A stretch of 35,791 nt of DNA from a virus. Of this stretch, positions 10 to 35,791 are shown piece by piece. Numbering within the stretch: the stretch's first letter is position 1; each line of letters opens with the position of its first letter. Under the pieces are notes generated by a model. The model was not told where the DNA came from. It worked only from the letters and a program-made list of their open reading frames with translations, and made no database searches. The stretch lies in the IMG/VR virus record IMGVR_UViG_3300012931_000053, positions 1 through 35,791 of that record. One strand, 5' to 3'. Both the position numbers and the translations under genes were made by a program.

Positions 10-38
10 TTGACCTTGGGTGTCACTTCTGATATTCT
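10..38 (+). promoter_or_regulatory. candidate sigma70 promoter before first gene
   Basis: TTGACC at 10-15, a 17-bp spacer, then TATTCT at 33-38, preceded by TGA (extended -10). The predicted start near 45 leaves a very short leader that still contains the GGAGG at 46-50. The same TGN extended -10 appears in the other candidate promoters of this window. The match is partial (4/6 at -10), so this is tentative. Confidence 0.35.
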
Positions 39-55
39 GAATTTCGGAGGATATT

Positions 56-439: not shown

Positions 440-451
440 GGAGGTAACAAA

Positions 452-1228: not shown

Positions 1229-1229
1229 A

Positions 1230-1370
1230 CTTTCAGGTCGTGGCCAGCGGTAATGTGAGAACGATTAATGCGAAGATGTCCGGCCAACACTGTTCTCATC
1301 CTGAATCGGGCGGGGTATCCTAGTGTCATGGCTCACCCATAAGAAGCTCTAGGCCCCGTCCACAATTTTT
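1230..1370 (+). promoter_or_regulatory. structured intergenic RNA region before polymerase block
   Basis: This 150-bp gap has two strong pairings. TGAGAAC at 1256-1262 pairs with GTTCTCA at 1292-1298. A long helix is formed by GGGCGGGG (1308-1315) and CCTAG (1319-1323) with CTAGG (1349-1353) and CCCCGTCC (1354-1361), interrupted only by a TAT bulge. TGGCC at 1241-1245 can also pair with GGCCA at 1282-1286 inside the first hairpin loop, which would give a pseudoknot. ACAATTTTT follows the helix and runs into the GGAGG of the next gene. It could be an attenuator/terminator, a protein-binding leader or a small RNA. The identity is not known. Confidence 0.45.
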
Positions 1371-1378
1371 GGAGGTTT

Positions 1379-1468
1379 ATGAATCGATTCGATGTTGATG
1401 AACAAATGGCAATTGGCATTTTAGCGGGTATGATCTTGGCGTTGTTATTGGGGATATTTGTTCGATGA
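1379..1468 (+). CDS. 29-residue single-pass membrane microprotein
   Basis: A tiny ORF with GGAGG at 1371-1375, spaced 3 bases from the ATG, encoding a hydrophilic N-terminus (about 1-9) and one predicted transmembrane helix (about 10-28). Its TGA overlaps the ATG of the DNA polymerase (ATGA at 1465-1468), so polymerase translation is probably coupled to it. It may be a genuine small membrane protein or mainly a translational leader for the polymerase. The close SD and precise overlap argue that it is translated. Function unknown. Confidence 0.55.
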   Translation: MNRFDVDEQMAIGILAGMILALLLGIFVR

Positions 1469-3174: not shown

Positions 3175-3332
3175 GTATCAAAAAAATACAGAACCTCGAA
3201 GCAAAGATTCTTGATGCGGTTCAGGGCGAGTATCGTCCTGCTGAAATTAGCATAGCTCTGGATCGGGTTAAGACAGCGATCTTCCTTCACACGTCCGGTT
3301 ATCGTAATCCGAATGGAGATTTCAATGAGTAA
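3165..3332 (+). CDS. small hypothetical protein
   Basis: A 55-residue protein. The ATG at 3165 is chosen over an upstream TTG because GGAGG (3151-3155) sits at correct spacing. The start lies inside the last codons of the polymerase gene, so the two are probably co-translated. It is mostly helical, with a charged N-terminal half. No motif is recognised. Confidence 0.6.
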   Translation: MEVSIKKIQNLEAKILDAVQGEYRPAEISIALDRVKTAIFLHTSGYRNPNGDFNE

Positions 3333-3600
3333 GCGATCAGATGCCGCACTGCTTCGGAGAGGCATGGTGCGCTGGAAGCCGGGTGAAGATATAGAGTCTA
3401 TTTCAACCCGCACCAAGACAATGATAAAGATTCGGGATGAGTCTTTCCCACAAGGTATGCCGGTCCTTGCGCCTGATAACCGGGGCGTGAGTATGAAGAA
3501 GCGTGAGTATATGAAGGCGCTTGGTTGTCGGACATGGAAAGCGGCGAGGAAGCTTATTACCCGTCATAACACTTTAGTAAAGATTGGGGTAATTGAATGA
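3325..3600 (+). CDS. small hypothetical protein, DNA-binding-like
   Basis: About 91 residues, basic (many Arg/Lys). It starts at the ATG at 3325, a few codons downstream of another in-frame ATG at 3313, with GGAG (3315-3318) just upstream, and overlaps the previous gene by 8 bases. The C-terminal part (about 55-91, SMKKREYMKALGCRTWKAAR) resembles a helix-turn-helix style segment, but I cannot assign a family. Its stop overlaps the next start in an ATGA, placing it in the replication operon. Confidence 0.6.
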   Translation: MSKRSDAALLRRGMVRWKPGEDIESISTRTKTMIKIRDESFPQGMPVLAPDNRGVSMKKREYMKALGCRTWKAARKLITRHNTLVKIGVIE

Positions 3601-4265
3601 AATCAGCGTGGAGCTACTCACGGCTCAGTATGTTTGAACAATGCCCGACGAAATATAAATTCAAACATATTGACAAATTAAAAGAGCCAGACTCCCCGGC
3701 CATGGCGCGGGGTAATGAGATACACAAGATGGGTGAGGAATATCTCCAAGGCAAATTGAAAAAGGTACCAGAGCCTTATAAATTATTTGCCAAGGAAATG
3801 AAGTTTCTGAAAAAGATCAAGGCTAAATCCGAAGAGCAATGGGCTTTTGATGAAGATGGTGAGTCTGTCGATTGGTTTGATCCCACTGTCCGGCTTCGGA
3901 TTAAAATGGATGCTTACTACAGAGTCGCTGATGATATCATTGTGATTGATTTCAAAACAGGCAAGCCCCACGCTGCGGAGCACGAAGATCAATGCAAATT
4001 GTATGCTTGTGGCGCGCTGCTAAAATTTCCCGATGCTCGTATGTTCTGCGTGGAAATGTGGTATCTTGATCAGGCCGGTGCCCTGAATACGCCTGTTAAA
4101 TCAGTGTTTAACTATACCAAAGATCAGGTGGAGAACTTGATTCCCCGCTTCGCAGATCGAGCGTCAAGAATTGACAAAGAAAAGAAGTTTGACGCACGGC
4201 CCGGTTTCCAATGCCGGTGGTGCACGTTCTCATCCACAAAAGGCGGTCCGTGTAAGAAAGGATAG
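3597..4265 (+). CDS. RecB/Cas4-type PD-(D/E)XK exonuclease with Fe-S cluster
   Basis: A 222-residue nuclease. The N-terminus (SYSRLSMFEQCP, about 6-17) is typical of the PDDEXK_1/Cas4/AddB group. Active-site motifs are GNEIH (about 39-43), VIDFKTGK (about 119-126, carrying the catalytic D and K) and a QxxxYA motif (about 136-141). C16 near the N-terminus together with three C-terminal cysteines (CRWC...GGPC, about 206-219) match the four ligands of the 4Fe-4S cluster known in AddB/Cas4 enzymes. It probably degrades or processes DNA ends for replication or recombination. No Cas genes or CRISPR array are nearby. Confidence 0.88.
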   Translation: MKSAWSYSRLSMFEQCPTKYKFKHIDKLKEPDSPAMARGNEIHKMGEEYLQGKLKKVPEPYKLFAKEMKFLKKIKAKSEEQWAFDEDGESVDWFDPTVRLRIKMDAYYRVADDIIVIDFKTGKPHAAEHEDQCKLYACGALLKFPDARMFCVEMWYLDQAGALNTPVKSVFNYTKDQVENLIPRFADRASRIDKEKKFDARPGFQCRWCTFSSTKGGPCKKG

Positions 4266-4268
4266 ATA

Positions 4269-4607
4269 ATGGCAAAAAAACGGATAGGGCCTCCGGCTTC
4301 ACACCTGAAGGTGCTGATATGGGAGGCTCAAGTAGATGTCTTTGTCTGCCGGGGTATGCTCGATAACCCTAAAAAAGATTTGGGAAATCAGGAGCCCGGA
4401 ACAAATAGAATTATCATCAGCCCTGATATTGAATCAATGCACGAATTATTAGATACTTTTGTGCATGAGGTCTTGCATTTTGTTTTGGGCACGGATGAAG
4501 AACTGGTTGAGGCTTGTACAGCGAAGATTATACATTCATTGACTGGCTTTGAACGTAAACGCTTGTTTTTAAAGTTTGCTCAATCCTTGAAAAAGGTGGA
4601 GGGATAA
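4269..4607 (+). CDS. HExxH zincin-like phage protein
   Basis: A 112-residue protein with HEVLH at about residues 66-70, followed by a glutamate-containing segment (GTDEELVEACTAKI) typical of the third metal ligand in small zincins. It is much shorter than SprT or ImmA proteases. Similar short HExxH proteins are found in phage early regions, with unknown substrates. It could be a protease or a degenerate metal-binding protein. It lies 3 bases after the RecB-like nuclease, and its stop overlaps the start of the next gene. Confidence 0.75.
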   Translation: MAKKRIGPPASHLKVLIWEAQVDVFVCRGMLDNPKKDLGNQEPGTNRIIISPDIESMHELLDTFVHEVLHFVLGTDEELVEACTAKIIHSLTGFERKRLFLKFAQSLKKVEG

Positions 4608-4867
4608 TGTATAATTATTGGATCACCTTTATATCCTCATTTGCGTTCATAGCACTAAGGGCTTTCCAGCAATTGAATGTCGTTCACAATAACAGAATCT
4701 TGATTATTCCTACCAGCCTTCTCATGGCTGCGTGTGAAACAGTTGTGATTGTCAATGTGGCCCGAAATGGCTTTGGTATCATTGTGCTTTTTACCGGCTT
4801 CGGGGCTGGGATAGGCGCACTATTCGCTATGTGGTTGCATCAATGGCTGATGAAAAAAAAGGTGTAG
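4607..4867 (+). CDS. small multi-pass membrane protein
   Basis: An 86-residue hydrophobic protein with predicted transmembrane helices at about 6-20, 30-49 and 56-79, a Gly-rich third helix (GFGAGIGALF) and a Lys-rich cytoplasmic tail. The start overlaps the zincin-like stop (TAATG). Function unknown. The position among early genes makes a late holin role unlikely, and an early membrane or superinfection function is possible but unsupported. Confidence 0.65.
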   Translation: MYNYWITFISSFAFIALRAFQQLNVVHNNRILIIPTSLLMAACETVVIVNVARNGFGIIVLFTGFGAGIGALFAMWLHQWLMKKKV

Positions 4868-5049
4868 GGCGGCCGCGCCAAGAACGATGTAAACGCGGTC
4901 ATGAGTTTTTGCGAGAGAATACGTATTTTGAACAGAGTATTAAAAATGGAAAGATATATATTTTTAAACGCTGTCGAATGTGTAGCGCGCAAAAAGTTTT
5001 AGTTCATTATTATAGGAGAAACCATTGTGGCGAAAATCAAAATTCTTAA
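4843..5049 (+). CDS. CxxGH-CxxC zinc-binding small protein
   Basis: About 68 residues from the ATG at 4843; an in-frame ATG at 4831 is also possible. After a basic GRPRQ stretch comes a putative zinc module: CKRGHEF, about 25 residues, then CRMC and a Tyr/Arg-rich tail. The same layout forms the C-terminus of the HNH endonuclease at 8042-8455 and the N-terminus of the protein at 33552-33887. The gene is AT-richer than its neighbours and overlaps both, which could mean it derives from a mobile endonuclease that lost its nuclease domain. A DNA-binding role is inferred. Confidence 0.6.
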   Translation: MADEKKGVGRPRQERCKRGHEFLRENTYFEQSIKNGKIYIFKRCRMCSAQKVLVHYYRRNHCGENQNS

Positions 5050-5776
5050 TCGAAGCTTTAAAGAAACAATCAATATCTACCCTCTTTGCTGTATACACAT
5101 TGGTTCCAAAAACGCGGCGTTGGAGAAGGCTGCGGCTCTGGTTGATAAGATTAGGTCAGAAAAAAATTCTTACGCCTTACTCATGGGAGATACTGTTGAA
5201 AATGTTATCCCCGACACCGCCCAAAAACACAAAGGCTCAATGTATGACCAGATCATGAACCCGGAGGATCAGAGAGCCTACGCGGTGAAGTTTCTTTCTC
5301 CCATCAAGGATAAAATCATCGCCTTTCTTGAAGGGAACCACTCTATTCGATCATGGTACGCCGCACAGTTTAGTCCTGAGCGCGACATTGCTGAGAAGCT
5401 TGGCGCTCCGTTTCTCGGTGTAGATGGCTTATTCCGATTCACCGTAGGGAAACAAGTTTACAAGGTCCATGCCACCCATGGGCACGGCAACACCGGCACC
5501 TCCGGGGGGGTACTAACCAAGATCGAGAAACAGATGGGCCGGATGGTAGGCGCTGATTTGCATATCATGGGTCACTATCACACCCCCTGCGCAGTGAAGA
5601 AACGCATCATCAACATTGAGACAGGCGAATTGGATGATCGGACTTTCGTTGCAACGGGATCATTCATGGACTATCTTGACTCTTACGCGCACCGGGCACT
5701 TATGAGCCCATCAGCGTTGGAGATTCCAAGGATCACGTTGTATTCAAACATTAAAAAGGCGGAGGTATTACTATAA
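5027..5776 (+). CDS. calcineurin-like metallophosphoesterase
   Basis: A 249-residue protein from a GTG start, with AGGAG about 10 bases upstream. Family motifs appear in order: IHIGS near the N-terminus (the usual DxH is altered), MGDTVEN (GD, about 53-59), EGNHS (GNH, about 101-105), THGHG (about 150-154) and GHYHT (GHxH, about 181-185). These are the dinuclear-metal phosphoesterase signatures, although the first metal-ligand motif is atypical. Targets of phage members include nucleic acids and nucleotides. Being beside the nucleases and polymerase, it probably acts in DNA processing or nucleotide turnover. Confidence 0.85.
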   Translation: MAKIKILNRSFKETINIYPLCCIHIGSKNAALEKAAALVDKIRSEKNSYALLMGDTVENVIPDTAQKHKGSMYDQIMNPEDQRAYAVKFLSPIKDKIIAFLEGNHSIRSWYAAQFSPERDIAEKLGAPFLGVDGLFRFTVGKQVYKVHATHGHGNTGTSGGVLTKIEKQMGRMVGADLHIMGHYHTPCAVKKRIINIETGELDDRTFVATGSFMDYLDSYAHRALMSPSALEIPRITLYSNIKKAEVLL

Positions 5777-6483
5777 TGGGCCCGGATCGAAATGCAACTT
5801 TTGAAGAAGTACAGATTGGTCAAAAATTGTGGGATGAGATTGAGGGTGAATGTGAGGTGATAGGTATTGATTCTGTCGATAAAGAAATAACTATTAAATG
5901 CCGAAACTTTGCGATCCTTACTTTTACCTTTAATGGCCGTCATATATATTCATCTAAACGAACCTTATATTGGTGGCCTGATGATGAGAAGACTTCAGGT
6001 GATGTAAAACAATTTATTAAAGACCTTGAACCTACAATTAAAAAACTTACCTTTCCTGAGTCTGCGTCGATATGTGGATCACAGACCCTCGGCGCTCCGC
6101 CCTCAAAAGGTTTGAATAAAGATAACGGCAAGCTCCGTGTCGATCTCGTTCCCGTGTCAGCCATTGAAGCCATTGCCGAAGTGCTTGGTAAAGCTTGTGC
6201 TCCCACCCCTGATGGCAAGCCACCCAAATATCCAGAGCGTAATTGGGAAAACGGAATTGCTTATAGCCGAGTCTATGCTAACGTCCAGCGCCATTTGCTA
6301 GCATGGTGGAAGGGCCGGGACATTGATCCTGAGTCCGGTTTGCACACCTTAAAGCATGCCTTGTGCCGTCTCTCGATGTTGGTTGAGTATGTAGAAAGAG
6401 GCATGAATAATTTTGATGATCGTCCCCATAAACCAGAGGTGCTACATGCGGGAAGCAACCCTGCAAAAGAAAATAAAAGCTGA
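5776..6483 (+). CDS. dATP/dGTP diphosphohydrolase-like protein with N-terminal beta domain
   Basis: A 235-residue two-domain protein. Residues about 8-70 form a small beta-rich phage domain (VQIGQKLWDEIEGECEVIGI ... RTLYWW). Residues about 115-205 match the dATP/dGTP diphosphohydrolase (DUF5664/MazZ-type) family: NGKLRVDLVPVSAIEAIAEV, KYPERNWE, RVYANVQRHLLAWWKG, DPESGLHTLKHALCRLSML. The RH...D.ESG.H...H pattern carries the conserved metal and nucleotide residues. The expected role is to hydrolyse dNTPs and bias the pool. In some phages such enzymes belong to 2-aminoadenine DNA synthesis, but no purZ is seen here. It overlaps the metallophosphoesterase stop by one base. Confidence 0.78.
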   Translation: MGPDRNATFEEVQIGQKLWDEIEGECEVIGIDSVDKEITIKCRNFAILTFTFNGRHIYSSKRTLYWWPDDEKTSGDVKQFIKDLEPTIKKLTFPESASICGSQTLGAPPSKGLNKDNGKLRVDLVPVSAIEAIAEVLGKACAPTPDGKPPKYPERNWENGIAYSRVYANVQRHLLAWWKGRDIDPESGLHTLKHALCRLSMLVEYVERGMNNFDDRPHKPEVLHAGSNPAKENKS

Positions 6484-6721
6484 TCTCGAAGAAGCTGGCT
6501 GGCTTGTTTTCAAGCTTTCTACGCCGGGTCAAACCGGAGTGCCTGATTTACTAATCATGCGTGGTGGATGCTTTGAGTTTATTGAAATCAAGACAACTGG
6601 CGGTAAACTATCACCCAAACAAAAGTGGTGGCATGAGCAACTTAATCAAAAAACAAGTCGAGTGGTAATTGTGATTTTGTCTCTTGAGCATTGGAATGAG
6701 TTGAAGGATCAGATTTTATGA
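6446..6721 (+). CDS. VRR-NUC domain nuclease
   Basis: A 91-residue protein with the complete VRR-NUC layout: an N-terminal helix REATLQKKIKADLEEAGW, then TGVPDLLIMRGG (catalytic D of the PD motif), FIEIKTTGGKLSPKQKWW (ExK motif) and a C-terminal VVIV strand. The ATG at 6446 matches the family N-terminus better than the in-frame ATG at 6413. Stand-alone VRR-NUC proteins cut structured DNA such as Holliday junctions or flaps. It overlaps the following helicase by ATGA, and in other phages this nuclease is often paired with an SNF2-type helicase. Confidence 0.9.
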   Translation: MREATLQKKIKADLEEAGWLVFKLSTPGQTGVPDLLIMRGGCFEFIEIKTTGGKLSPKQKWWHEQLNQKTSRVVIVILSLEHWNELKDQIL

Positions 6722-8055
6722 AGTGGAACCCCCACAACTACCAAAAAGAGTCCGTGAAGTTTATGCTGTCTCATCCTGAGTCCGGTTTATTCCTTTCGCC
6801 GGGTTCAGGGAAGACTTCTATCATACTTCATTACCTGAAGATACTCAAATCCAAGAAGCGGATGTCAACACTCGTAGTTGCCCCTTTCAGGGTCATGAAT
6901 GTATGGTGTGAAGAAATTGAAAAGTGGGGGCTCCCATTCACATTCACTATTCTCCACGGGTCCACGAAAGATGAGCAAATCAAAAAAGTGTATGATGTCT
7001 ACATCACCAACTATGATTCTCTTGAATGGTTGGCGAAGCAGGGAAATAAATTTGACATCCTTGTGCTGGACGAGTCCTCAAAGATCAAACACCATGGGAC
7101 AAAAAGATGGAAGACGCTCAAAAAACTTTTGAACAACTTTTCCCGGAGACATATTCTTACCGGCTCTCCCGCTGCACAATCGCTGCTCAACCTCTTCACT
7201 CAAGTCTATACATTGGATGGGGGAGTTGCCCTTGGACGATATATCACACATTACAAGAACGAGTTCTTTTACCCGGCAGGGTATGGCGGATACGAATGGA
7301 AGCCCATTCCCGGCGCGGAGGAAAAGATATTCAAGCGCATAGAGCATCTGGTTCTGCGCTTCCAGAATAAGCTGGACCTTCCCCCGTGCCATAAGGTTTA
7401 TCACAAGATCGAATTGCCGGACGATGTGAAGAAGCTTTATTACAAAATGGAGCGGGAGCTCTACTTCCAGTATGAAGAGAAGGAGGTCGTAGCGGCCAAT
7501 GCCGCCGTCGCTTCCAACAAGCTTCGGCAGATCGTAGGCGGCAACGTATATGGCGAAAAGGGCGAGGCGATCGCCTTCCATAACATCAAGGCCGAAATGG
7601 TCAAGGACCTTGTAGAAGAAATGCAGGGCCAGCCATGCCTTGTGGGATACGAGTTTACCCACGACCGTGACGCTTTGCTCAAAGCACTAGGCCCTGAGAC
7701 ACCATATATCGATGGCACAGTGAGTTCCACAAAAGCCGATTACATTCTGAAAAACTTCAACTCAGGTAATTGCCCGGTGCTCCTTGGGAATACGACCTCG
7801 CTTGCCTATGGGCTTAATCTTCAGGCTGGTAAAGCAATTATTTTTTATAGTATACCGTGGAGTCTTGAAATTCGAGATCAATTTGTGCAAAGAATTTGGA
7901 GACAGGGCCAAAAAGACACAACCTTTATACATTATATTATAGCTAAGTCTTCTATTGACGAAGCTATATTAAATAAGCTAGAATGTAAAGATAAGGCTCA
8001 AAACTTATTATTTTCTGCGCTTGAAGAGGTTTTTAAAAAATATGTTACCAAATGA
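6718..8055 (+). CDS. SNF2-type superfamily 2 helicase
   Basis: A 445-residue protein. Motif I is SPGSGKT (27-33), motif Ia VVAPFRV, motif II DESS (118-121, replacing DEAH), motif III LTGSPA (147-152), motif V region YGLNLQAG (about 364-371) and motif VI QRIWRQGQ (391-398). The order and the C-terminal RxxRxGQ box are those of compact phage SNF2/ATP-dependent translocases. It probably drives dsDNA translocation or branch migration with the adjacent VRR-NUC nuclease. No DnaB-like helicase is visible in the window. From about 7830 on, base composition shifts abruptly to AT-rich while the reading frame and motif VI stay intact. Confidence 0.92.
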   Translation: MKWNPHNYQKESVKFMLSHPESGLFLSPGSGKTSIILHYLKILKSKKRMSTLVVAPFRVMNVWCEEIEKWGLPFTFTILHGSTKDEQIKKVYDVYITNYDSLEWLAKQGNKFDILVLDESSKIKHHGTKRWKTLKKLLNNFSRRHILTGSPAAQSLLNLFTQVYTLDGGVALGRYITHYKNEFFYPAGYGGYEWKPIPGAEEKIFKRIEHLVLRFQNKLDLPPCHKVYHKIELPDDVKKLYYKMERELYFQYEEKEVVAANAAVASNKLRQIVGGNVYGEKGEAIAFHNIKAEMVKDLVEEMQGQPCLVGYEFTHDRDALLKALGPETPYIDGTVSSTKADYILKNFNSGNCPVLLGNTTSLAYGLNLQAGKAIIFYSIPWSLEIRDQFVQRIWRQGQKDTTFIHYIIAKSSIDEAILNKLECKDKAQNLLFSALEEVFKKYVTK

Positions 8056-8455
8056 TTTTCATGTACGTTTTAGATTTCGATCTAATGGTTGTTGGGAATG
8101 GATAAGTAAAAATAAATTTGGGTATGGGAGCAGTGTCCGTATTGCTGGAATTAAAATCCCGCCCCATGTTGTATCATATAGACATTTTTTAGGGCCTTAT
8201 CCAATAGGGTTTGATCTTGATCATCTTTGTAGAAACCGCTCATGTATTAATCCTGAACATTTAGAACCTGTAACCCGTGCTGTTAATAATAGTAGACGAG
8301 TATTTATAAAGAAAACACATTGCAAGCATGGACATGAGTGGGACCCGGCAAACACTAGATTTAATCAAACGCCTAAGGGTGGCTACCAGCGTACTTGTCG
8401 TAAATGTGCTGTGATTGTAACCGCACGCTACCGTAAAAACCAAAAGGAGAAATAA
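8042..8455 (+). CDS. HNH endonuclease (HNH_3 type), free-standing, homing-like
   Basis: A 137-residue protein. The first half has the HNH_3 pattern: GCWEW, HVVSYRHFLGP, DLDHLCRNRSCINPEHLEPV and NNSR. The C-terminal part carries the CKHGHEWD ... CRKC module shared with two other small genes here. It starts inside the last codons of the helicase gene (start 8042, helicase stop 8055). The coding sequence is clearly AT-richer than the upstream helicase body. Such genes are usually selfish homing endonucleases that cut cognate phage DNA near their insertion site. The next gene begins 1 base after its stop. Confidence 0.9.
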   Translation: MLPNDFHVRFRFRSNGCWEWISKNKFGYGSSVRIAGIKIPPHVVSYRHFLGPYPIGFDLDHLCRNRSCINPEHLEPVTRAVNNSRRVFIKKTHCKHGHEWDPANTRFNQTPKGGYQRTCRKCAVIVTARYRKNQKEK

Positions 8456-8456
8456 A

Positions 8457-8765
8457 ATGGAAGAAGCAAGATTAATTTTGTTTGCATGGAACGGCAAGAC
8501 AATTGTTGCAAAGCGCAACGCAGACGGCACTATTGTTGAAGCAATTGAGGTGAGGCACATTATGACCGTTCAGGGCCCCGGTATCAGCTCAGATCAGATT
8601 GGTAACTTCAATCCGTCCTTTACCCCGGATGTTTTTACTTTTCTGCCGGATGCTACAAAGAGCGACTATACTCGGAATTATAACAAATGCACTACCGGGG
8701 TAGATGTGCTTGAAGGCGTGTCACAGGCGAAGAACCTCATTGACATTAACAAGCACAGGAGATAG
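8457..8765 (+). CDS. hypothetical early protein
   Basis: A 102-residue protein with a good Shine-Dalgarno (AAGGAG about 8 bases before the ATG). The N-terminal half reads as beta strands (ARLILFAWNGKTIVAKR, then GTIVEAIEVRHI) and the C-terminal half is loop-rich. No catalytic motif or membrane segment is visible. It follows the HNH gene directly, so it probably marks the resumption of the original operon. Function unknown. Confidence 0.65.
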   Translation: MEEARLILFAWNGKTIVAKRNADGTIVEAIEVRHIMTVQGPGISSDQIGNFNPSFTPDVFTFLPDATKSDYTRNYNKCTTGVDVLEGVSQAKNLIDINKHRR

Positions 8766-8767
8766 GC

Positions 8768-9040
8768 ATGAGCGGGATACGCGAGACCTTTCACAACATT
8801 CCCCAATCGGATTGGGATCGGATATTCAAAAGTAAAAAAGAACCAGAGCTTGATGACAATGGGCAGCCAAGACTACCACGGTTTATTGTGGTAGTCGGGC
8901 TGCTCGTCGAGGCACAGACCAAAGCTGAGGCCATTGAGTCCACAAAAGAATTGATTGAGGTGGAAGGGTCTTACTTCTTCCAGCACGGTCAGCCTGAGAT
9001 AACATCTATTGAATCGGTGGAGGCAGCATCATGTGGTTAA
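8768..9040 (+). CDS. hypothetical early protein
   Basis: A 90-residue acidic protein with a central strand/helix region (RFIVVVGLLVEAQTKAEAIE, about 38-57) that looks like a small alpha/beta fold. Its 3' end overlaps the i-spanin gene by 10 bases, so it is probably translationally coupled to it. No family is recognised. Confidence 0.65.
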   Translation: MSGIRETFHNIPQSDWDRIFKSKKEPELDDNGQPRLPRFIVVVGLLVEAQTKAEAIESTKELIEVEGSYFFQHGQPEITSIESVEAASCG

Positions 9041-9426
9041 GTTTACTGGCAAACAAATATACCGGGATCATCCTTTTGTATGTGGTTCTGCTGGGCTATA
9101 TCGGCATTGAGAAGATCGAACTCAAGCATAAAAATAATGAGATCGCTGAGCTGACACAACAGAAGGCTGATTTACAAGCGGGGATCAGTGTGCAGAACCT
9201 AGCTATTAACCAGCTCTCAACATACAACAAGATCAAGACTCAGCAAGTTGCCGATGCCGAGCACCTCGCAGAGAAGCTTCAGGACGAGATCGACCTGAAG
9301 GCTCAGGCCATTCAGAATCAGAAGACAACCATTGACCAGAAGTTTACGGACCTCAAAGGGTGCCGCGCGCAGTTAGCCCGGATCAAGTCTTATATGACCG
9401 GGGCTGAAAAGGAGTTTAAAAAATGA
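9031..9426 (+). CDS. i-spanin (Rz-like), inner-membrane lysis protein
   Basis: A 131-residue protein with one N-terminal transmembrane helix (about 10-27) followed by a long Gln/Lys/Glu/Ala-rich coiled coil (about 30-105). This is the topology of Rz-type inner-membrane spanins. The assignment rests on that topology plus the o-spanin lipoprotein that follows with an ATGA overlap. Spanins fuse the inner and outer membranes at the end of Gram-negative lysis. Unusually, it ends the + strand early arm instead of lying beside the endolysin, which is on the other strand. Confidence 0.85.
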   Translation: MWLSLLANKYTGIILLYVVLLGYIGIEKIELKHKNNEIAELTQQKADLQAGISVQNLAINQLSTYNKIKTQQVADAEHLAEKLQDEIDLKAQAIQNQKTTIDQKFTDLKGCRAQLARIKSYMTGAEKEFKK

Positions 9427-9725
9427 AAGAATTTTTGAGTAAAGTACTCAGCCCTTTTGAATGGTTTGTGGTTATAGTTTGCTTAGTGCTGCTGGCACTA
9501 ACTTTTGCAGGATGCGCCCACGCCCCCACGACCCAAACGGTTGAGGTACCTATAGCCGTGCGACCGGCCCATGTTGAGAATCCCAAGTGCCCCGATCTAC
9601 CCATCAAAGCTCTAAGAGACGAAGACACTTGGGATGTCCGGCTCAAGGCATGGTGGAGCACCATTATTATTCAAGATGGCTGTATCAAAGCCAAAGACAA
9701 AGTATTGGAGGAATTAAATAAATGA
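9423..9725 (+). CDS. o-spanin (Rz1-like) outer-membrane lipoprotein
   Basis: A 100-residue protein with a hydrophobic signal (about 14-29) ending in a lipobox TFAGC, with the lipidated Cys at residue 31, followed by AHAPTT. The mature part is about 70 residues with two further Cys. It overlaps the i-spanin stop by 4 bases (ATGA). The pair is of the overlapping/adjacent type, not the fully embedded Rz/Rz1 type. Expected to sit in the outer membrane and bind the i-spanin across the periplasm. Confidence 0.87.
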   Translation: MKEFLSKVLSPFEWFVVIVCLVLLALTFAGCAHAPTTQTVEVPIAVRPAHVENPKCPDLPIKALRDEDTWDVRLKAWWSTIIIQDGCIKAKDKVLEELNK

Positions 9726-9973
9726 GCGACAAAATCAATCACCCGAATCATTACAACACAGGTAAGATCGAAGTAATCGACGCGATTGATGATTGGAAAC
9801 TTTGCTTCTATGCGGGAAATGTGGTCAAGTATGTGGCTCGCGCGAAGCACAAGGGGGATGAGTTGGCAGATTTAATGAAGGCTAGGTGGTACCTAGAGCG
9901 ATTGATTTCACAGCTTATGGAGGCGAAGGCTTGTCCTTCAAGTCTGCAAAGCTCTTCCCAACCATTGCAGTAA
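9722..9973 (+). CDS. DUF3310 family protein
   Basis: An 83-residue protein with the DUF3310 signature: INHPNHYNTGKIEVIDAI at the N-terminus, FYAGNVVKYVARAKHKG in the middle and DLMKARWYLERL after it. DUF3310 proteins are widespread in phages and are sometimes labelled nucleotide kinase-like, but no kinase motif is present and the role is unproven. It is the last gene of the + strand arm. Its last 59 bases overlap the 3' end of the convergent holin gene, so the C-terminal tail (after about residue 65, Ser/Gln-rich) is probably not conserved. Confidence 0.88.
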   Translation: MSDKINHPNHYNTGKIEVIDAIDDWKLCFYAGNVVKYVARAKHKGDELADLMKARWYLERLISQLMEAKACPSSLQSSSQPLQ

Positions 9974-10145
9974 GAATACCCCACAATACTTGAACCATCC
10001 CGGAGGGGATGTCTGCCAGCTTCCCCTCTTTCAAACTTACAATAGCCCAAGCGATAAAGACCATGAAGAATGATATGGCCATAATAAGACGGAAGGGGCA
10101 CAGGCTGTCCTGATTATCTGTAAGCATTTCAAGAATCTTTTTCAT
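9915..10145 (-). CDS. putative holin, two transmembrane helices
   Basis: A 76-residue protein with predicted transmembrane helices at about 18-37 and 46-63 separated by a short charged turn (LKEGKLAD), and a charged C-terminal tail. Size, topology and position right after the endolysin fit a class II-type holin that opens the inner membrane for lysis. It starts with an ATGA overlap with the endolysin stop and is the last gene of the late arm. No sequence motif proves holin function. Confidence 0.7.
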   Translation of the reverse strand: MKKILEMLTDNQDSLCPFRLIMAISFFMVFIAWAIVSLKEGKLADIPSGMVQVLWGILTAMVGKSFADLKDKPSPP

Positions 10146-10591
10146 CCCTTTATTATCATCCCTTCTAGTTCAATTGCGCGAGGCCCTACCTCAGTGTACC
10201 ATGGACTGTTCTTCATTTCAGCGGCGCATTCCGGCCACTCCCCGGCCTCGGCATGGGCGAGCATTTTATGAAATCCCCGGAACCGCACAGGACCAAGATT
10301 GAAGCGCATATCGGCCAGCGCGATCTGCCTATTATCAGAGATTAGCGTATACCATGGAAAACTGGTATAGAGATCGGCCAGCACTTCATCGATGTCGTTC
10401 TTCAGCATGAGTGCGATCTCATCCGGCCGCACGCCTACATCCGTCAGGTTGCGCCCCACCCCTATTGTAATCTTGCCGGGTGTGTTGATACGGCCCACTT
10501 TGTCATCATAAGGTTTGGTTTCGGGTACCCCGCCCTTACACTCATGAATACGAAGTCTCTGTTCAAGTATTACTCTCGACGCTATGATCAT
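10142..10591 (-). CDS. endolysin, T4-lysozyme-like (GH24) muramidase
   Basis: A 149-residue single-domain lysozyme. The catalytic Glu is E17 (RLRIHECKGG), followed by D29/D30 and T42 in GKITIGVGRNLTDVG, which is the E-D-T arrangement of T4-type lysozymes. A later segment (ALADMRFNLGPVRFRGF) matches the conserved helical half. There is no signal sequence, so export needs the holin. Genes on both sides are small membrane proteins, and the spanins are on the opposite strand about 0.5 kb away. Confidence 0.92.
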   Translation of the reverse strand: MIIASRVILEQRLRIHECKGGVPETKPYDDKVGRINTPGKITIGVGRNLTDVGVRPDEIALMLKNDIDEVLADLYTSFPWYTLISDNRQIALADMRFNLGPVRFRGFHKMLAHAEAGEWPECAAEMKNSPWYTEVGPRAIELEGMIIKG

Positions 10592-10966: not shown

Positions 10967-11472
10967 TTTGCCGTTATCTCCATTGCCCAAAGATTAATTT
11001 GTGCTGTAGTATCACAGTAAATAATACCAGTTCCTGTTTGCATTTGTGCTACAATATCAATTGTATGAGCACCTACTGACAATTGCTGTATCCAAAATAT
11101 ATTATAAGGATTTTGAGCACCACTTACAGATATACCTAATCCGTCGAATTTTCCTGTGACTTCAACTCCATCTATTGCAAAAGATATAATTAAACTTCCC
11201 GGATTAGCAGCAATAGTTCGGGGCATTGATGCAAAAATAAACCATGTTCCTCCGCCCGAAGTAATCGCAAGATGAACTGGTTTCTGAGGTAGTACAGCAA
11301 AAGTTGCCGATACAATGGTGTTATTGGTTGCATTATCTCCGCCCACCGAAACGTGTTGAAGCGTAGTGGCATTAATCCACGGGGCGTTTTCAATAAACAC
11401 TCTGGTAATGTTTTGTCCAGTGGGGTTTGTGCCCTGCCCAAATTTATCTTGTCGTCCCTCAGAACCAGCCAT
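10963..11472 (-). CDS. beta-rich tail/receptor-binding type protein
   Basis: About 169 residues from the ATG at 11472; an in-frame ATG at 11499 is possible. It is rich in Thr, Gly, Asn and alternating hydrophobic strands, with no catalytic motif. The C-terminal half (SVGAHTIDIVAQMQTG) looks like a beta-sandwich domain found in phage tail or fibre proteins. It follows the ATP-grasp gene and overlaps its end. Being the last structural gene before lysis, it may be a fibre tip or a virion decoration. Confidence 0.55.
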   Translation of the reverse strand: MAGSEGRQDKFGQGTNPTGQNITRVFIENAPWINATTLQHVSVGGDNATNNTIVSATFAVLPQKPVHLAITSGGGTWFIFASMPRTIAANPGSLIISFAIDGVEVTGKFDGLGISVSGAQNPYNIFWIQQLSVGAHTIDIVAQMQTGTGIIYCDTTAQINLWAMEITAK

Positions 11473-12721
11473 GTTTTTTAAACCACCCCAATTCTTCATC
11501 GATTAGCTTCTTGCCAATATCCACCCGGTACCCAAGCCAAGATGGAAAATCATACTTCTTGATATAATCATACACTTTTTTCTGAGTCTCTTCAAGCGAG
11601 TTGCCGGTCGCGACCGTAACCAACGCCGCCCCGGAGGACCCACACGTTTGATATCCTTCCTTGGTCTTCTCGATCTCATAGAAGTAGAGGTGCTCCGGGG
11701 AGTCTTCCTTGATCCCCGGTATAATTTTGCCCTTCCCGTGTTTGACATAGCCTTCCTTAAACGGATAGCCGGGGGCAGACAATACTACATTGACCACCCA
11801 AGTATTCTTCATTGGCAAAGCTTCCAACGTGCCGTTGGCGATCTCATAGAAGTATTCACCCACATCCATCTTGGTGTTCTCAATCTGCATAAAGATCGCG
11901 GGATATCCCAAGCGCGAAGTAGGCTCCATGACAAATGCCTTGTCTTCAGTGAGCATAAAATTTAAATCAAAATCCGTGCTGTACCCGGTGTTTGCCAGCC
12001 ATGGGCGAAGCTTCTCAATCTCGGTAATAAGACGATTCTTGGAAAGGTAGGCCGCGACAGTGCCTTGCTCTCCGGTGTTGGGGCCTAGATTACCGGCAAG
12101 AAGCTTCTTATGTTCCCAATTGATTTGGAAAGGATAGATGAACCGATCAGCGCAGAAGGATGAGCCGATAGCCATTTCATGACCTTTAATAAACTCTTGG
12201 AGGATGGCGCCTTGTTTGATATTGAGGCCCTTCTTCTTCCATCGTTCAACTTCTTGGATTAAATCATCCGCATCCCGAGAGACATAGGTAAGGTCTCGAT
12301 CCTGCTGGCCGGAGGGCTTAATCACCCACCTCTTAGGTGTTTTCTTGACAAAGGTAATGATTTGATCAAGAGTCTTAAATGGGCCTACCCATGGGGGAAC
12401 TGTGCAGCCATACTTCTCAAGAAGCCTCATACCATAAGCCCGGTCGTCTTCGAGTTTGTCTGTGGCTTCTGTACCGCAGGAGACTAGGATTCCGGCCTTG
12501 CGCCACTGATCCATTTCCTTACCATAACCAGTAGAGTCCACAATGACCACATCAGCCCACCGAGCATGGCTCCGATAATCAGGAACCAGATTAATGATAC
12601 CTCGGCCAATATCGAGAGACTCTTTATCTTTGCACCATACTTTAACTTCATGGCCTTCATCCTGCAATCGTGTGAGTAATCCAAGGCTGTCTATTTCGTC
12701 ACTGATGATTAGATATTTCAT
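11459..12721 (-). CDS. divergent PurD-like ATP-grasp ligase
   Basis: A 420-residue protein aligning over its length with phosphoribosylamine-glycine ligase (GARS). The N-terminal Rossmann-like part lacks the GGREHA loop. Then come VIKPSG (133-138, ATP lysine), LQEFIKGHEMAIG (174-186), GNLGPNTGEQGT (210-221), EPTSRLGYPA (266-275) and a GARS-C-like domain (about 308-405, VVLSAPGYP ... GYRVDIG). In true GARS the metal loop reads ExNxRxGDPE; here Asn is Thr and DPE is YPA. It lies among virion genes with ATGA coupling to the 1034-residue internal protein, not with nucleotide genes. An altered substrate or a protein-modifying ligase is plausible. Confidence 0.8.
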   Translation of the reverse strand: MKYLIISDEIDSLGLLTRLQDEGHEVKVWCKDKESLDIGRGIINLVPDYRSHARWADVVIVDSTGYGKEMDQWRKAGILVSCGTEATDKLEDDRAYGMRLLEKYGCTVPPWVGPFKTLDQIITFVKKTPKRWVIKPSGQQDRDLTYVSRDADDLIQEVERWKKKGLNIKQGAILQEFIKGHEMAIGSSFCADRFIYPFQINWEHKKLLAGNLGPNTGEQGTVAAYLSKNRLITEIEKLRPWLANTGYSTDFDLNFMLTEDKAFVMEPTSRLGYPAIFMQIENTKMDVGEYFYEIANGTLEALPMKNTWVVNVVLSAPGYPFKEGYVKHGKGKIIPGIKEDSPEHLYFYEIEKTKEGYQTCGSSGAALVTVATGNSLEETQKKVYDYIKKYDFPSWLGYRVDIGKKLIDEELGWFKKHGWF

Positions 12722-18233: not shown

Positions 18234-21101
18234 TTAGATCATTAAAAGCTGACTATTGGCTTGAGTTAAATATGTTGATTGGCTTGGGCTAAATCCACCA
18301 TCAACATTTGTTTTGATAATCATATAAGTAAATTTCATATTACCGAGTAATCCAATTTGGCTATTGCCTAATGCGGTAAATGAAACTAAAAACGAGATAC
18401 GTCGTCCTTTTACCGCTTGTTTAAATTGAAAAAATGTTGTTTGATTAGCATGATCAGTAGTTAAATAGGTTTTTGCTAATGCTGCCATTGCTACTCCATC
18501 CATTACCGGCGTACAAGTAATTACTACACCAGCATAGCAATTATACAGATCAAAAGATAATCTGTCAATAACCTTCACAGCATTCGGATCGTCCAGCGTA
18601 AAATCTTTCGTCTGGAATCGACCTTGAATAGTAGGGGTTGTATTAATAGCCTGAAACTCATAGATAGATGTGCCACTAATATAAAGATGTTCAGGCAAGC
18701 CTGAATTACCGCTGGTCACATTAAAATATGGATAGGTGATGGATTGCAGACCGTCCTGAACCGACACACCCGGCCAATTAAACCATTTATCAAGACTGAA
18801 TCGATAGGCCCATTGTGCAGGATAATTTGTAAATGCACCTGTGCGCGATGTCTGTGTTAAGATAATCAAATGATCATCATGATAAAACATCTTGGTACCA
18901 TTGGGTGTGATCACAAAACTATTTCGCACATCATTACTTAGAATTTTTGGAAGCACCGATTGGCCGTCGGTAAGGCGAAGCTGTCCATATTGATCAGCAA
19001 ACACAATTCCGTAAGGTGTCGGACAAATAGTAGATTGGCTTAATAAACCAATTCCGGGAGCCATTAATGAAATAATCGCTTGCTTACTTGGGTCACCAGT
19101 TAAAGTATAAATTGCATTCTTACAAAAAATAAGAAGGCGACCCCCCCATCCATGTGTTGCAACAAGATCACCAATATCGCCTTCAATAAAATCATAGTAA
19201 TTTGTTGAAAGGCTATCGCTTGTTGAACCAAAAACCACAGCGGGAAGATTTGTAAAATATAATCGATTGCCAGAAGTACAAGCCCAAAGACGTGATTTAA
19301 ACCACGAAATATGATTTGCAAAATAATTCGCTGCACCACCAAAAGTAATTTGTACGCAAGGTATCCATGAGATTGTATACGAGCCATTCCCCGGTGCTGT
19401 GTAAAGTAATAAAGTTGTTGGGGTTACTGCCGCGACAATAAAACCACCATTCCCATCATCACCACCTGTTGTAATCCCTGAAAAAGTAATAATACTTCCG
19501 GGAGCAATGTTAGCAGTAAAAACTGTGCCAGATGAATAAGTAACAGATAAACCTGAGACAGTACCGATAGATTGGTTTGGACTTTGAGTACCATATATTA
19601 ATGGAAGATATACATATACTTTATTTTGAAGCCCAACAAAAGCTCGCATAGCGGTTTGCACTTGGGTAATGCTGGCTGATGTCATAACCGATCCCAAAGT
19701 ACCATTATTTGACAACGCCACAAAAGTATTGTTACTGAAGACTAAGCCAATCCACGCTATATCTGAAGGAGTGGCAAGTATCGACCATGCAACGCCATCA
19801 GTAGAGTATATGGACCGATTACCTATACCTGTAGATGATACAGCCATAAATAAACCATTACCATAAGATACTGAGGTCCATGTATTGTTGGCTGGTGTGG
19901 TACTATTATTCCATACAGCGACAGACGATGCAAAATTTGTTGTTGATAAAACCCCTCCCGCATAGACGAAAACATATATACCAGAACCATAGGTCATAGA
20001 ATTAGTATAATAAGTTGTAGTATATAAGGGAAGGGTAGGTGTGTTGAAGACCCAATTAATGCCATCGGTTGAATACGTATACGCCATTTTTGGTCCGCCT
20101 GCCGGTGCACTAAATGACGATACAAATTGAATAAAATAATTGTTTACCGCATAGATTGGAGATGAAGTAAACATTACGGCAGTATATGGTTGCCGTAATG
20201 TCCATGTTATACCATCGGGAGATGTCATATATGTTATAGTAGTAGGGTATAATATAGAGTCTGTTCCTGATTGTGAGTATGAAGCTACAAATAAATTATT
20301 AGCCCACACAACACAAGTCCATGGCAGTACACAATTAGCGGGGACAGCACGCAGGGTCCATGTTATACCATCAGGCGAGGTCATTACAGTATTTGCCGTT
20401 GTACCATTATTTGATACAGCAACAAATAAATTCGCACTAGATACTGTACCAGAACAAACAGATTGCCATGCCACATCAGCAGCAGAAGTTCGTGTTGTCC
20501 AAGTAACTCCATCAGGAGAAGTCATCACTCGCGTACCTGTGCCTGTTGATGCAACTGCTACAAATAATTTTGAACCAGAAACAGTTCCAACACCAATTCC
20601 ATTCCATGTATTCGTTGAAGCTGCGTTACGAACAGTCCAATTAGCTGAGTTAATTAAAGCATTATTATTAATAAGTGTTAATACACTTCCAACATAACGA
20701 TTTGGTGCGAAGCCCCAATCTTCTGCCGCAGCAATACGCGTAGCCGTGGATAAGGATAAATCCATAAGCATAACATAACCTGTGCTAACAGACATCACAT
20801 TACGCACAGTAAAATATAGCGGAATAGTGCTAAAATTTACTTTGTCCCATTGCATCGGTTCATAGATATGACGCAACGCTGTCGTACCATAAAAATTTGT
20901 ATTAAGAATGAAGTTGTTCAGAACGGATGGAATAAGTGTTGGCACCGCAAGAACATTACTATCCCCAGCATCACCGACGAGATCAAAATTCTCAAGAAGC
21001 TGAAATTCATCATCACCGATCAAAGTCGGAGCTTGAGAAGTATTCAACGAAGTGAATTGAGGTATTACTTTAGTTTGCCAAGCTTGTTGAGTGGGAGGCA
21101 T
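18234..21101 (-). CDS. tail nozzle-like protein with inserted beta-propeller
   Basis: A 955-residue protein. The start (TKVIPQFTSLNTSQAPTLIG) and the beta-rich C-terminal two-thirds, with the segment VATHGWGGRLLIFCKNAIYT, match the large nozzle/stabilisation proteins of P22- and T7-like podoviruses. Between about residues 152 and 482 lie six or seven repeats of about 45 residues ending in (T/Y)SPDGxTWT or STDGxxW and containing LFVAV strands, as in seven-bladed propellers of the BNR/kelch type. Read alone, the flanking parts look continuous, so the propeller is probably an inserted adhesion domain. The gene follows the adaptor gene directly. Confidence 0.78.
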   Translation of the reverse strand: MPPTQQAWQTKVIPQFTSLNTSQAPTLIGDDEFQLLENFDLVGDAGDSNVLAVPTLIPSVLNNFILNTNFYGTTALRHIYEPMQWDKVNFSTIPLYFTVRNVMSVSTGYVMLMDLSLSTATRIAAAEDWGFAPNRYVGSVLTLINNNALINSANWTVRNAASTNTWNGIGVGTVSGSKLFVAVASTGTGTRVMTSPDGVTWTTRTSAADVAWQSVCSGTVSSANLFVAVSNNGTTANTVMTSPDGITWTLRAVPANCVLPWTCVVWANNLFVASYSQSGTDSILYPTTITYMTSPDGITWTLRQPYTAVMFTSSPIYAVNNYFIQFVSSFSAPAGGPKMAYTYSTDGINWVFNTPTLPLYTTTYYTNSMTYGSGIYVFVYAGGVLSTTNFASSVAVWNNSTTPANNTWTSVSYGNGLFMAVSSTGIGNRSIYSTDGVAWSILATPSDIAWIGLVFSNNTFVALSNNGTLGSVMTSASITQVQTAMRAFVGLQNKVYVYLPLIYGTQSPNQSIGTVSGLSVTYSSGTVFTANIAPGSIITFSGITTGGDDGNGGFIVAAVTPTTLLLYTAPGNGSYTISWIPCVQITFGGAANYFANHISWFKSRLWACTSGNRLYFTNLPAVVFGSTSDSLSTNYYDFIEGDIGDLVATHGWGGRLLIFCKNAIYTLTGDPSKQAIISLMAPGIGLLSQSTICPTPYGIVFADQYGQLRLTDGQSVLPKILSNDVRNSFVITPNGTKMFYHDDHLIILTQTSRTGAFTNYPAQWAYRFSLDKWFNWPGVSVQDGLQSITYPYFNVTSGNSGLPEHLYISGTSIYEFQAINTTPTIQGRFQTKDFTLDDPNAVKVIDRLSFDLYNCYAGVVITCTPVMDGVAMAALAKTYLTTDHANQTTFFQFKQAVKGRRISFLVSFTALGNSQIGLLGNMKFTYMIIKTNVDGGFSPSQSTYLTQANSQLLMI

Positions 21102-32576: not shown

Positions 32577-32882
32577 TTAAACCAAGTCAATCCCGGATAC
32601 ATAGATGTCTATGACAGGCACATTAAACCTCGCAGCCAAGATAACTCTGTATCCCTGCATGAACGTAAGACGCGCCTTGGTATCCACGTCAACACAGACG
32701 AAGAATCCCCAACACGCACCCATATCTTTCATATCGTGCGCGAAGTCACAGGGTCCGTAGACCTGAGCAAATTGAGCACTTAGCTCGGAGCGCGTAGTCT
32801 CGATGAGCGATGAAAGAGTGGGCGAGCCGTTGTGATCAAAAGCAGGAATATGGACTTCGTATTGTGCATACTTGGTTGCCAT
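32577..32882 (-). CDS. hypothetical protein, first gene of late arm
   Basis: A 101-residue alpha/beta-looking protein with a central Cys-containing stretch (DMGACWGFFVCVDVD) and C-terminal strands (FNVPVIDIYVSGIDLV). AGGAG lies 8 bases before the ATG, below an extended -10 promoter. It is the first gene read leftwards from the control region, so it may be early-expressed or regulatory. Not recognised. Confidence 0.65.
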   Translation of the reverse strand: MATKYAQYEVHIPAFDHNGSPTLSSLIETTRSELSAQFAQVYGPCDFAHDMKDMGACWGFFVCVDVDTKARLTFMQGYRVILAARFNVPVIDIYVSGIDLV

Positions 32883-32908
32883 GCTCGTAGCTCCTTTGAT
32901 GTAACTTT

Positions 32909-32917
32909 AGTATAACA
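32909..32917 (-). promoter_or_regulatory. candidate extended -10 promoter, leftward
   Basis: On the - strand, TGTTATACT: TGN followed by TATACT and then AAAG. The -35 at 17 bp is poor (TAGCGT), so the extended -10 would carry it. Predicted start near 32902, giving a leader of about 20 bases with AGGAG before the ATG at 32882. Confidence 0.5.
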
Positions 32918-33051
32918 TAAAGATTATAATTACGCTACTATTTAATAAGGTCTATGTTATTAAATTCTAAGCGCAAAGGTTTATTAAAAATTCGAGGTCG
33001 AAATTTTGAGGGTGTCTGTAGTTTGCCGGAACTGTTATTTAGATCGTCGCG

Positions 33052-33075
33052 CCCCGTCCCTCCCCCCTCCCCCCC
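33052..33075 (-). promoter_or_regulatory. putative G-quadruplex tract
   Basis: On the - strand the order is seven G, A, six G, A, three G, AC, four G. These four runs of at least three G separated by 1, 1 and 2 bases satisfy the usual G-quadruplex pattern; the + strand is the matching C-rich tract. It immediately flanks the CTAAGC repeats. It may influence replication or transcription, which is inferred. Confidence 0.55.
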
Positions 33076-33076
33076 T

Positions 33077-33153
33077 GCGCTAAGCCCTAAGCGATAGGCA
33101 CTAAGCGTTAAACTTTCAACGATAAGCTCTAAGCACTAGGCACTCAGCACCAA
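33077..33153 (+). repeat. iteron-like CTAAGC repeat cluster
   Basis: Exact CTAAGC at 33080, 33087, 33101 and 33129, plus ATAAGC at 33122 and near-copies (ATAGGCA, CTAGGCA, CTCAGCA). Spacing is irregular (7, 14, 28), yet all are multiples of 7. Such clusters can bind an initiator or a regulator. The protein that would bind is unknown. Confidence 0.5.
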
Positions 33154-33275
33154 GTAACCACGAAATAAGTATAGTTAAGCTATTCACTATGCGCAGAGTA
33201 TCCAAGCTATTCAGGTTTAAAGGTTTTTGGCGGGAAAATCGAAGTTGCAACCGACGGAAGGGGCATGGATAAAGG

Positions 33276-33392
33276 GCGAAGTCAACGAAGGTTTGAGGTT
33301 TAAGGATACTTTATACTACTATTAGAACAGAGTGTATATTTATATATAAGAGTTTGAAATGAGTTTAAACCTCAAACCTTTTGGCACTTCGC
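33276..33392. repeat. large interrupted inverted repeat
   Basis: AAGGTTTGAGGTTTAA (33288-33303) is a perfect inverted match of TTAAACCTCAAACCTT (33365-33380). Outside a symmetric 5-base mismatch, GCGAAGT (33276-33282) matches ACTTCGC (33386-33392). The 61-bp centre is AT-rich with alternating TA. It could form a cruciform or bind a dimeric initiator or repressor. Confidence 0.75.
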
Positions 33393-33442
33393 GCTCTGTT
33401 TGCAGTGCTTCGAGAGGTTGCAACTTGATAAAAAAAGAGCCA

Positions 33443-33490
33443 AAAAACCCCTGTTTTTAGGGTCTAAAAATAAACCTTTAACCTTTAACC
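33443..33490 (+). repeat. overlapping hairpins and CCTTTAA repeats before rightward promoter
   Basis: AAAAAC (33443-33448) can pair with GTTTTT (33453-33458), and TTTTTAG (33454-33460) can pair with CTAAAAA (33464-33470). The two are mutually exclusive. Then CCTTTAA repeats at period 7 reach the -35 region of the rightward promoter. Possibly a switch or spacer; no function is shown. Confidence 0.35.
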
Positions 33491-33499
33491 ATTTTTTGA

Positions 33500-33505
33500 T
33501 ATAAT
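33500..33505 (+). promoter_or_regulatory. candidate extended -10 promoter, rightward
   Basis: A perfect TATAAT preceded by TGA (extended -10) and followed by AAAAT. The -35 at 17 bp is weak (TTTAAC). Predicted start near 33512, about 40 bases before the ATG at 33552, with AAGGAG in the leader. It would drive the right-hand + strand genes. Confidence 0.6.
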
Positions 33506-33551
33506 AAAATAAACATCAAGTTGAAACCTCAGCGCAAGGAGCTAAGACACA

Positions 33552-33887
33552 ATGAGCGAAGTATTTAAATGGGAGTACGGCAAAGGTTTTTGTAAAAAAG
33601 GCCATAAGATTTCGGATGATTGCTACACAGATAAAAGACAAAACAAAGTGTATTGCGCTAAGTGCATGCGGGCATTTCAACAAAAATATAAACGCCAAAA
33701 TAGACAACTGATATTAAACGCAAAACCACCAGAAAGGCTAGACTTCAACACACAGTTAAAGATTGACTGGCAATCAATTCTTGAGCGATTAGAGAGCGTG
33801 CGTAAAATGTCTCCTCGTTTTGCTTATGACATGATCCTAGGAATGAAGAAGGAATTAAATGAGTTTAGCCTGCGAAGAAAGGTTTAA
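33552..33887 (+). CDS. CxxGH-CxxC zinc-binding protein, possible regulator
   Basis: A 111-residue protein. The N-terminal zinc module is CKKGHKISDD ... CAKC (Cys at about 14, 35 and 38) with a following basic Lys/Arg/Gln stretch. It is the same pattern as the HNH endonuclease C-terminus (8042-8455) and the small gene at 4843-5049. The C-terminal part (about 65-111) is helical and charged. As the first gene rightward of the control region it could be a DNA-binding regulator, though it may equally be a domesticated remnant of an endonuclease. Confidence 0.65.
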   Translation: MSEVFKWEYGKGFCKKGHKISDDCYTDKRQNKVYCAKCMRAFQQKYKRQNRQLILNAKPPERLDFNTQLKIDWQSILERLESVRKMSPRFAYDMILGMKKELNEFSLRRKV

Positions 33888-35248: not shown

Positions 35249-35791
35249 ATGAAATTACTTACAAGCGGAAAAACAAACTATAAAATCGCCAAAGGTGAAG
35301 GGCAAGGATACCTGAATTTTATTCTTTCCCTTTCCCCCTCAGACCTAAGCGGTTATAATACTTGCCCAAAAGCTTCGCCGGGATGCCGTGAAGCTTGTTT
35401 GAACACGGCAGGGAGGGCGGTTTTTTCCAATGTGCAAGAGTCACGGTTACGAAAAACCCGGTACTATTTTATAAACCGGGAGGGTTTTTTAAATGACTTG
35501 CGGGAAGATTTGCGCCTAGTAGAGAAACAGGCGCACAAAAAGGGTTTACTCCCGGTTGTAAGGCTAAATAGTACTTCAGATTTAAATTGGAATGACATAA
35601 TCCGAGAGTTTCCTAGCATCCAATTTTACGATTACACAAAAGTTTTAAAACGGTTTCAAAACAAACCGTCAAACTATCATTTGACTTTTTCAAAGTCTGA
35701 GAAAAACAACAGCGAAGTAAAACAAGCCATTGCGCAAGGTTATAATGTAGCAATGGTTTTCAATCACAATGAGGGATTGCCCGCCCGTTAT
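35249..35791 (+). CDS. GP88-family protein, 3' end cut by window
   Basis: 181 codons are present and the frame is open at the window edge. AAAGGAGG precedes the ATG. The sequence shows the GP88 pattern: NTCPKASPGCREACLNTAGR (Cys at about 39, 46 and 50), RLRKTRYYF, RLNSTSDLNW and FYDYTKVLKRF. GP88 proteins (named after a mycobacteriophage gene) are widespread in phages, with unproven function. The conserved Cys cluster may bind metal. The C-terminus cannot be judged. Confidence 0.85.
   Translation, partial: MKLLTSGKTNYKIAKGEGQGYLNFILSLSPSDLSGYNTCPKASPGCREACLNTAGRAVFSNVQESRLRKTRYYFINREGFLNDLREDLRLVEKQAHKKGLLPVVRLNSTSDLNWNDIIREFPSIQFYDYTKVLKRFQNKPSNYHLTFSKSEKNNSEVKQAIAQGYNVAMVFNHNEGLPARY

Follow-up and report, generated by a model that had tools for sequence, protein, structure and literature searches.

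The divergent intergenic region

The DNA analysed here, IMG/VR virus record IMGVR_UViG_3300012931_000053, is taken in its entirety (35,791 bp; hereafter the window) and is a fragment of the genome of a tailed phage. Its late genes, including those for TerL (the large terminase subunit), portal, capsid, tail and tape-measure proteins, form a leftward arm running from about 32882 down to 10142, while its rightward genes start at 33552, continue as far as the right end, and fill a second block at 56–9973. Exactly between the two arms, as a preliminary description of this DNA had stated, lies a non-coding gap of 669 bp bounded by open reading frames at 32577–32882 (leftward) and 33552–33887 (rightward); the next largest gap on the contig measures 385 bp, and the reading frames inside this one are all short (47 aa at most), with no plausible gene among them. 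The same description named repeated GGTTTAA motifs and a large inverted repeat around an AT-rich core, both of which we recover among the following features.

32883–33551: the non-coding region itself, separating the leftward late arm from the rightward early arm; 39% GC, longer than any other gap on the contig
33213–33226, plus strand: outer left iteron pair AGGTTTAAAGGTTT, AGGTTT at 33213 and 33221
33238–33429: imperfect palindrome spanning about 190 bp, with its centre close to 33334 and with GAAGTTGCAACC and GGTTGCAACTTGAT as outer arms
33289–33303, plus strand: inner left iteron pair AGGTTTGAGGTTTAA, AGGTTT at 33289 and 33296; perfectly complementary to the inner right pair
33304–33364: AT-rich core and candidate melting site, 61 bp, 75% AT as against 55% contig-wide
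33365–33380, minus strand: inner right iteron pair TTAAACCTCAAACCTT, AAACCT at 33367 and 33374
33471–33490, minus strand: outer right iterons TAAACCTTTAACCTTTAACC with a period of 7
33478–33505, plus strand: candidate rightward (early) promoter TTAACC-16-TATAAT, matching the consensus at 10 of 12 positions, with TG before the −10 box
33515–33530, plus strand: third copy of the palindrome outer arm, ATCAAGTTGAAACCTC (inverted repeat I4, 94% complementary), a candidate operator

The hexamer AGGTTT, read together with its complement, occurs eight times between 33213 and 33529, in an unbroken order of four AGGTTT on the left followed by four AAACCT on the right, all facing inward. No other word in the genome clusters as significantly (log10E −4.9), and when scored as an oriented dyad (−6.1) it is the strongest dyad in the non-coding DNA. 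The palindrome is similarly exceptional, with a gapped inverted-repeat score of 56, where the runner-up in the genome reaches 35 and the highest value in 200 shuffles is 38, although an earlier ungapped statistic for the region was not significant; its single-strand folding is likewise extreme (z = −6.7 as DNA, −5.9 as RNA). Of the divergent promoters previously proposed to flank these elements, the rightward candidate stands, overlapping the outer right iterons and having the third palindrome-arm copy just downstream of its −10 box, but no good leftward one was found in the gap (best candidate 8 of 12), and promoter-like sites in total (5, versus 3.9 ± 2.0 in shuffles) are not above chance.

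Iteron dyads in phages sharing the replication module

When the region or the arm around it was searched as DNA against phage and plasmid collections, only short matches at chance level came back; an exact-pattern scan of viral contigs for the inner palindrome gave no match, and no close relatives emerged from protein searches with TerL, helicase and portal taken singly. As the nucleotide searches had provided no close relative, our comparison rests on phages that have the replication module gp157–PolA–nuclease–SNF2-helicase in common with the window, at 25–46% protein identity. Two other sources of relatives were set aside: loci found through the GP88-like gene were not syntenic, except for one with a TerL match (L076), whose divergent gap is AT-rich with small reading frames and has no comparable layout; and the closest relative by virion genes, ct7ZZ929 (MW202601), differs in its replication module.

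The non-coding DNA of the comparison phages was scanned for inward- or outward-facing word clusters at a single threshold throughout. In a first set, strict dyads were found in 5 of 22 module-sharing contigs (the window not counted), whereas the scan picked out 10 of 262 among other loci (p = 0.003) and 4 of 160 among unrelated ones (p = 0.0015); since the scan was developed while this set was in view, these figures are not an independent test. A second set of 75 previously unused loci, gathered by a later PolA-based search and scanned with the threshold unchanged, gave strict dyads in 16, with three near-duplicates among them; the 14 of 73 that stayed after their removal again exceed the 4 of 160 unrelated controls (p = 3e-5, with phages counted as independent despite their common ancestry).

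The words that make up the dyads differ from phage to phage: CCTAGGTT in L416, GGTAGTCA in L452, AGGTTACA in L460, GGGGTGCA in L414, GGTTACT in L107 and GGTAACC in G011. Inspected by eye, L452 reads GGTAGTCAGGTAGTCAGGTA, an AT core and then TACCTGACTACCTGACTAC; L416 carries AACCTAGGTAACCTAGG and CCTAGGTTACCTAGGTT, and L460 AGGTTACAGGGTTACAGGTTACA and GTGTAACCTGTAACCT. For G015 the strict scan returned the word CCCCTA, not the cluster GTAGGATA that we favour. An accessory motif near the iterons (CTAAGTGCTTGTTTT, at two loci) was overall not above chance. Judged from these contigs, it is layout and position that are conserved among the module phages, and not nucleotide sequence. Two contigs carry further repeats: G007 has its entire iteron dyad twice in tandem at the contig start (114–259 and about 320–466), either a true duplication or an effect of assembly, and the divergent gap of L439 (1600–1960) holds a CTAAGGGA dyad plus further palindromes, for example AAGTAAGCACTTACT and GAACGAACGTTCG.

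With respect to genes, the cluster lies no more than about 0.5 kb 3′ of the primase-helicase gene in 8 of the 14 second-set phages (L402, L403, L413, L414, L432, L452, L454 and L460). In the first set it is likewise within about 0.5 kb 3′ of that gene in G011 and G012, and about 0.9 kb off in G015; other clusters are 5′ of the primase-helicase gene or several kb distant. DUF5906 matches were found in 15 of the 22 first-set contigs and in 11 of the 14 second-set dyad contigs. Wherever a contig includes TerL, the cluster is on the upstream side of TerL, separating TerL from the primase or replication arm. One phage, G033 (the same as L439), reproduces the order of the window: TerL leftward, the dyad in the divergent gap, a primase-helicase gene rightward and then the module.

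A probable origin combined with a transcription switch

From its layout and its recurrence in other phages, we consider it probable that the region serves as a phage replication origin combined with a switch between early and late transcription; the earlier suggestion of a 'replication origin or master switch' gains support from the module-sharing phages. The two inward-facing sets of 7–8-bp iterons (AGGTTTRA) that flank the AT-rich core would be bound by an initiator, perhaps as two hexamers, which, having melted the core, would load onto each strand such that replication would proceed in both directions, to be continued by the PolA-type polymerase and SNF2 helicase that the phage itself encodes. 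Binding of the initiator would also repress the early operon, since the −35 box of its promoter is overlapped by the outer right iterons. This initiator is most likely a DUF5906-type primase-helicase encoded in a part of the genome that the contig lacks. Specifically, a GP88-like gene at 35249–35791 (plus strand) is cut by the right contig end, its relatives being some 50 residues longer, and joining the contig end to its start gives an immediate stop; this truncation identifies the record as a fragment with part of the genome missing, and, on the precedent of G033, the absent sequence that would join 35791 to 1 may hold the initiator gene.

Several observations weigh against such an origin. 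No primase-helicase gene was found beside the gap or elsewhere on the fragmentary contig, and the gap contains no DnaA box (TTATNCACA, allowing one mismatch), whereas a DnaA-dependent origin would have a cluster of them. Among the comparison phages, most fail the strict dyad test, and iteron words show no conservation between phages beyond chance. In the same scan no clear iteron dyad was seen in two isolates, Stenotrophomonas phage AXL_3 and Pseudoxanthomonas phage PW916, which carry the module and have the primase at the arm junction; by eye, the divergent gap of AXL_3 contains an AT-rich inverted repeat. Cumulative GC skew, proposed earlier as a check, has its minimum in the window at 32734, about 600 bp from the iteron cluster and hence near it, but GC-skew minima in the related contigs do not track their clusters. 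Given this, and since skew and gene direction switch together at the window minimum, the skew test is not decisive.

The region might instead control transcription only, with the AGGTTT repeats and the GTTGCAAC arms serving as repressor or activator operators that set early against late expression while replication starts elsewhere. The arms do diverge at the gap, the rightward promoter overlaps the right iterons, the third palindrome-arm copy (33515–33530) sits at the expected transcription start and no initiator gene adjoins the repeats in the window, all of which speaks for this reading. In the related phages, however, the same layout is mostly found 3′ of the primase-helicase gene and not at a promoter, always with an AT core, and two inward-facing sets around a core of about 60 bp are rare for operators; we therefore regard purely transcriptional control as unlikely.

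A further alternative is a large RNA hairpin, attenuator or terminator in a leader transcript, of which the repeats would form the stem. RNA folding is strong (z given above), but DNA folding is just as extreme, the region has no credible Rfam match, no qualifying intrinsic terminator was found, the additional iterons at 33213–33226 and 33471–33490 are largely outside the stem, and related phages retain the repeats even where only short arms can form; we find an RNA element very improbable. We give equally little credence to a cos or pac packaging site close to where the late arm ends in the terminase genes: packaging sites often lie upstream of those genes, a position that this region shares, but it is 2.7 kb from TerL in the window, the clusters of the related phages are tied mostly to the primase-helicase gene, and an AT-rich core flanked by iterons is the layout of an origin.

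Other features of the gap and the contig

Further elements of the gap, and the genes that border it, are as follows.

32577–32882, minus strand: first leftward gene, 101 aa, no family match
32891–32896, minus strand: ribosome-binding site AAGGAG of the first leftward gene
33052–33075, minus strand: G-tract, the only G-quadruplex (G4)-type motif of the genome
33079–33155, plus strand: period-7 array of about 11 degenerate NCTAAGC copies (GCTTAGN in the leftward sense), from lag-7 matches
33536–33541, plus strand: ribosome-binding site AAGGAG of the first early gene
33552–33887, plus strand: first rightward gene, 111 aa, zinc-ribbon-like, with weak similarity to part of an HNH endonuclease family

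The period-7 array stands out from chance: its 46 lag-7 matches out of 70 are the best in the genome and exceed the maximum of 35 in 300 shuffles. The G-run tract named in the preliminary description is present on the minus strand, but a G4-type motif also occurs in 26% of shuffled genomes, so that this tract is weak and not significant alone.

The rightward block at 56–9973 encodes a gp157/DUF7307-like protein, the PolA-type DNA polymerase, a PD-(D/E)XK-type nuclease, the SNF2-type helicase and an HNH endonuclease; the module gene at 452–1228 is conserved, and we use for it the working label SSB-like (single-stranded DNA-binding), with no family match. A sequence resembling a replication-operon promoter, TTGACC-17-TATTCT at 11–39 (plus strand), lies just upstream of the gp157-like gene, which begins at 56. 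The same early arm includes holin-like and amidase-like genes (4607–4867 and 5776–6483, plus strand), and a second lysozyme-like gene is found in the late arm (10142–10591, minus strand). Also in the late arm, a gene of 420 aa (11459–12721, minus strand) resembles PurD, phosphoribosylamine-glycine ligase, an odd neighbour for a tape-measure gene; its NCBIfam match (E 1.4e-25) is under the cut-off, while Pfam GARS domains score over theirs. A gene of 955 aa at 18234–21101 (minus strand), in a stretch of about 40% GC, has no match in Pfam, PHROGs or NCBIfam.

Comparison with known replication origins

Iterons recognised by a primase-helicase initiator are a feature of bacteriophage P4, a satellite phage in which the α primase-helicase acts at ori. 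The isolates AXL_3 and PW916 resemble the window in their PolA–nuclease–SNF2-helicase module, and in both the primase is located where two arms diverge. The putative origin of SCCmec (staphylococcal cassette chromosome mec) Cch2 is similar in that a D5/Primase_Cterm-type helicase binds short iterons situated downstream of its own gene, and in that the operon also encodes a PolA-like polymerase as its partner, but it has only three iterons of 5 nt and belongs to an integrated cassette, not a phage (PMC7581432).

The preliminary description held that the region matched no named family, and this does not hold up, as the layout fits the origins described for phage-inducible chromosomal islands (PICIs) and Staphylococcus aureus pathogenicity islands (SaPIs), in which two sets of iterons flank an AT-rich region (PMC6092414) and SaPI Rep helicases bind the iterons, apparently as two hexamers (PMC7581432). 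As in SaPIbov1 and EcCICFT073 (PMC6092414, PMC7581432), the window has two sets of short iterons (AGGTTT four times on the left, AAACCT four times on the right) with an AT-rich region between them (33304–33364, 75% AT), and in both groups the iteron words vary from element to element. The PICI and SaPI origins lie immediately 3′ of a rep or primase gene; on the window contig there is no such gene at the site, though there is in many of the related phages. PICIs are, moreover, satellites without virion genes of their own, whereas the window encodes TerL, portal, capsid and tape measure, belongs to a tailed phage that has a polymerase of its own, and has the site in a divergent gap between early and late arms. 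With two points of layout shared and the position 3′ of rep missing on this truncated contig, we suggest that the site works like a PICI origin and do not claim that it is one.

More tentatively, and with somewhat less confidence than an even chance would warrant, a broad lineage of non-satellite tailed phages may start replication at PICI-type origins where their early and late arms meet, each having a distinct iteron word that fits the primase-helicase of that phage, and with a single site acting as both origin and switch. If so, these phages would offer a sequence-based way of locating origins in uncultured phages, as well as many naturally occurring initiators, each paired with its iteron word, in which to study how specificity changes, and the PICI-type layout, occurring in phages with full sets of virion and polymerase genes, would not be confined to satellites.
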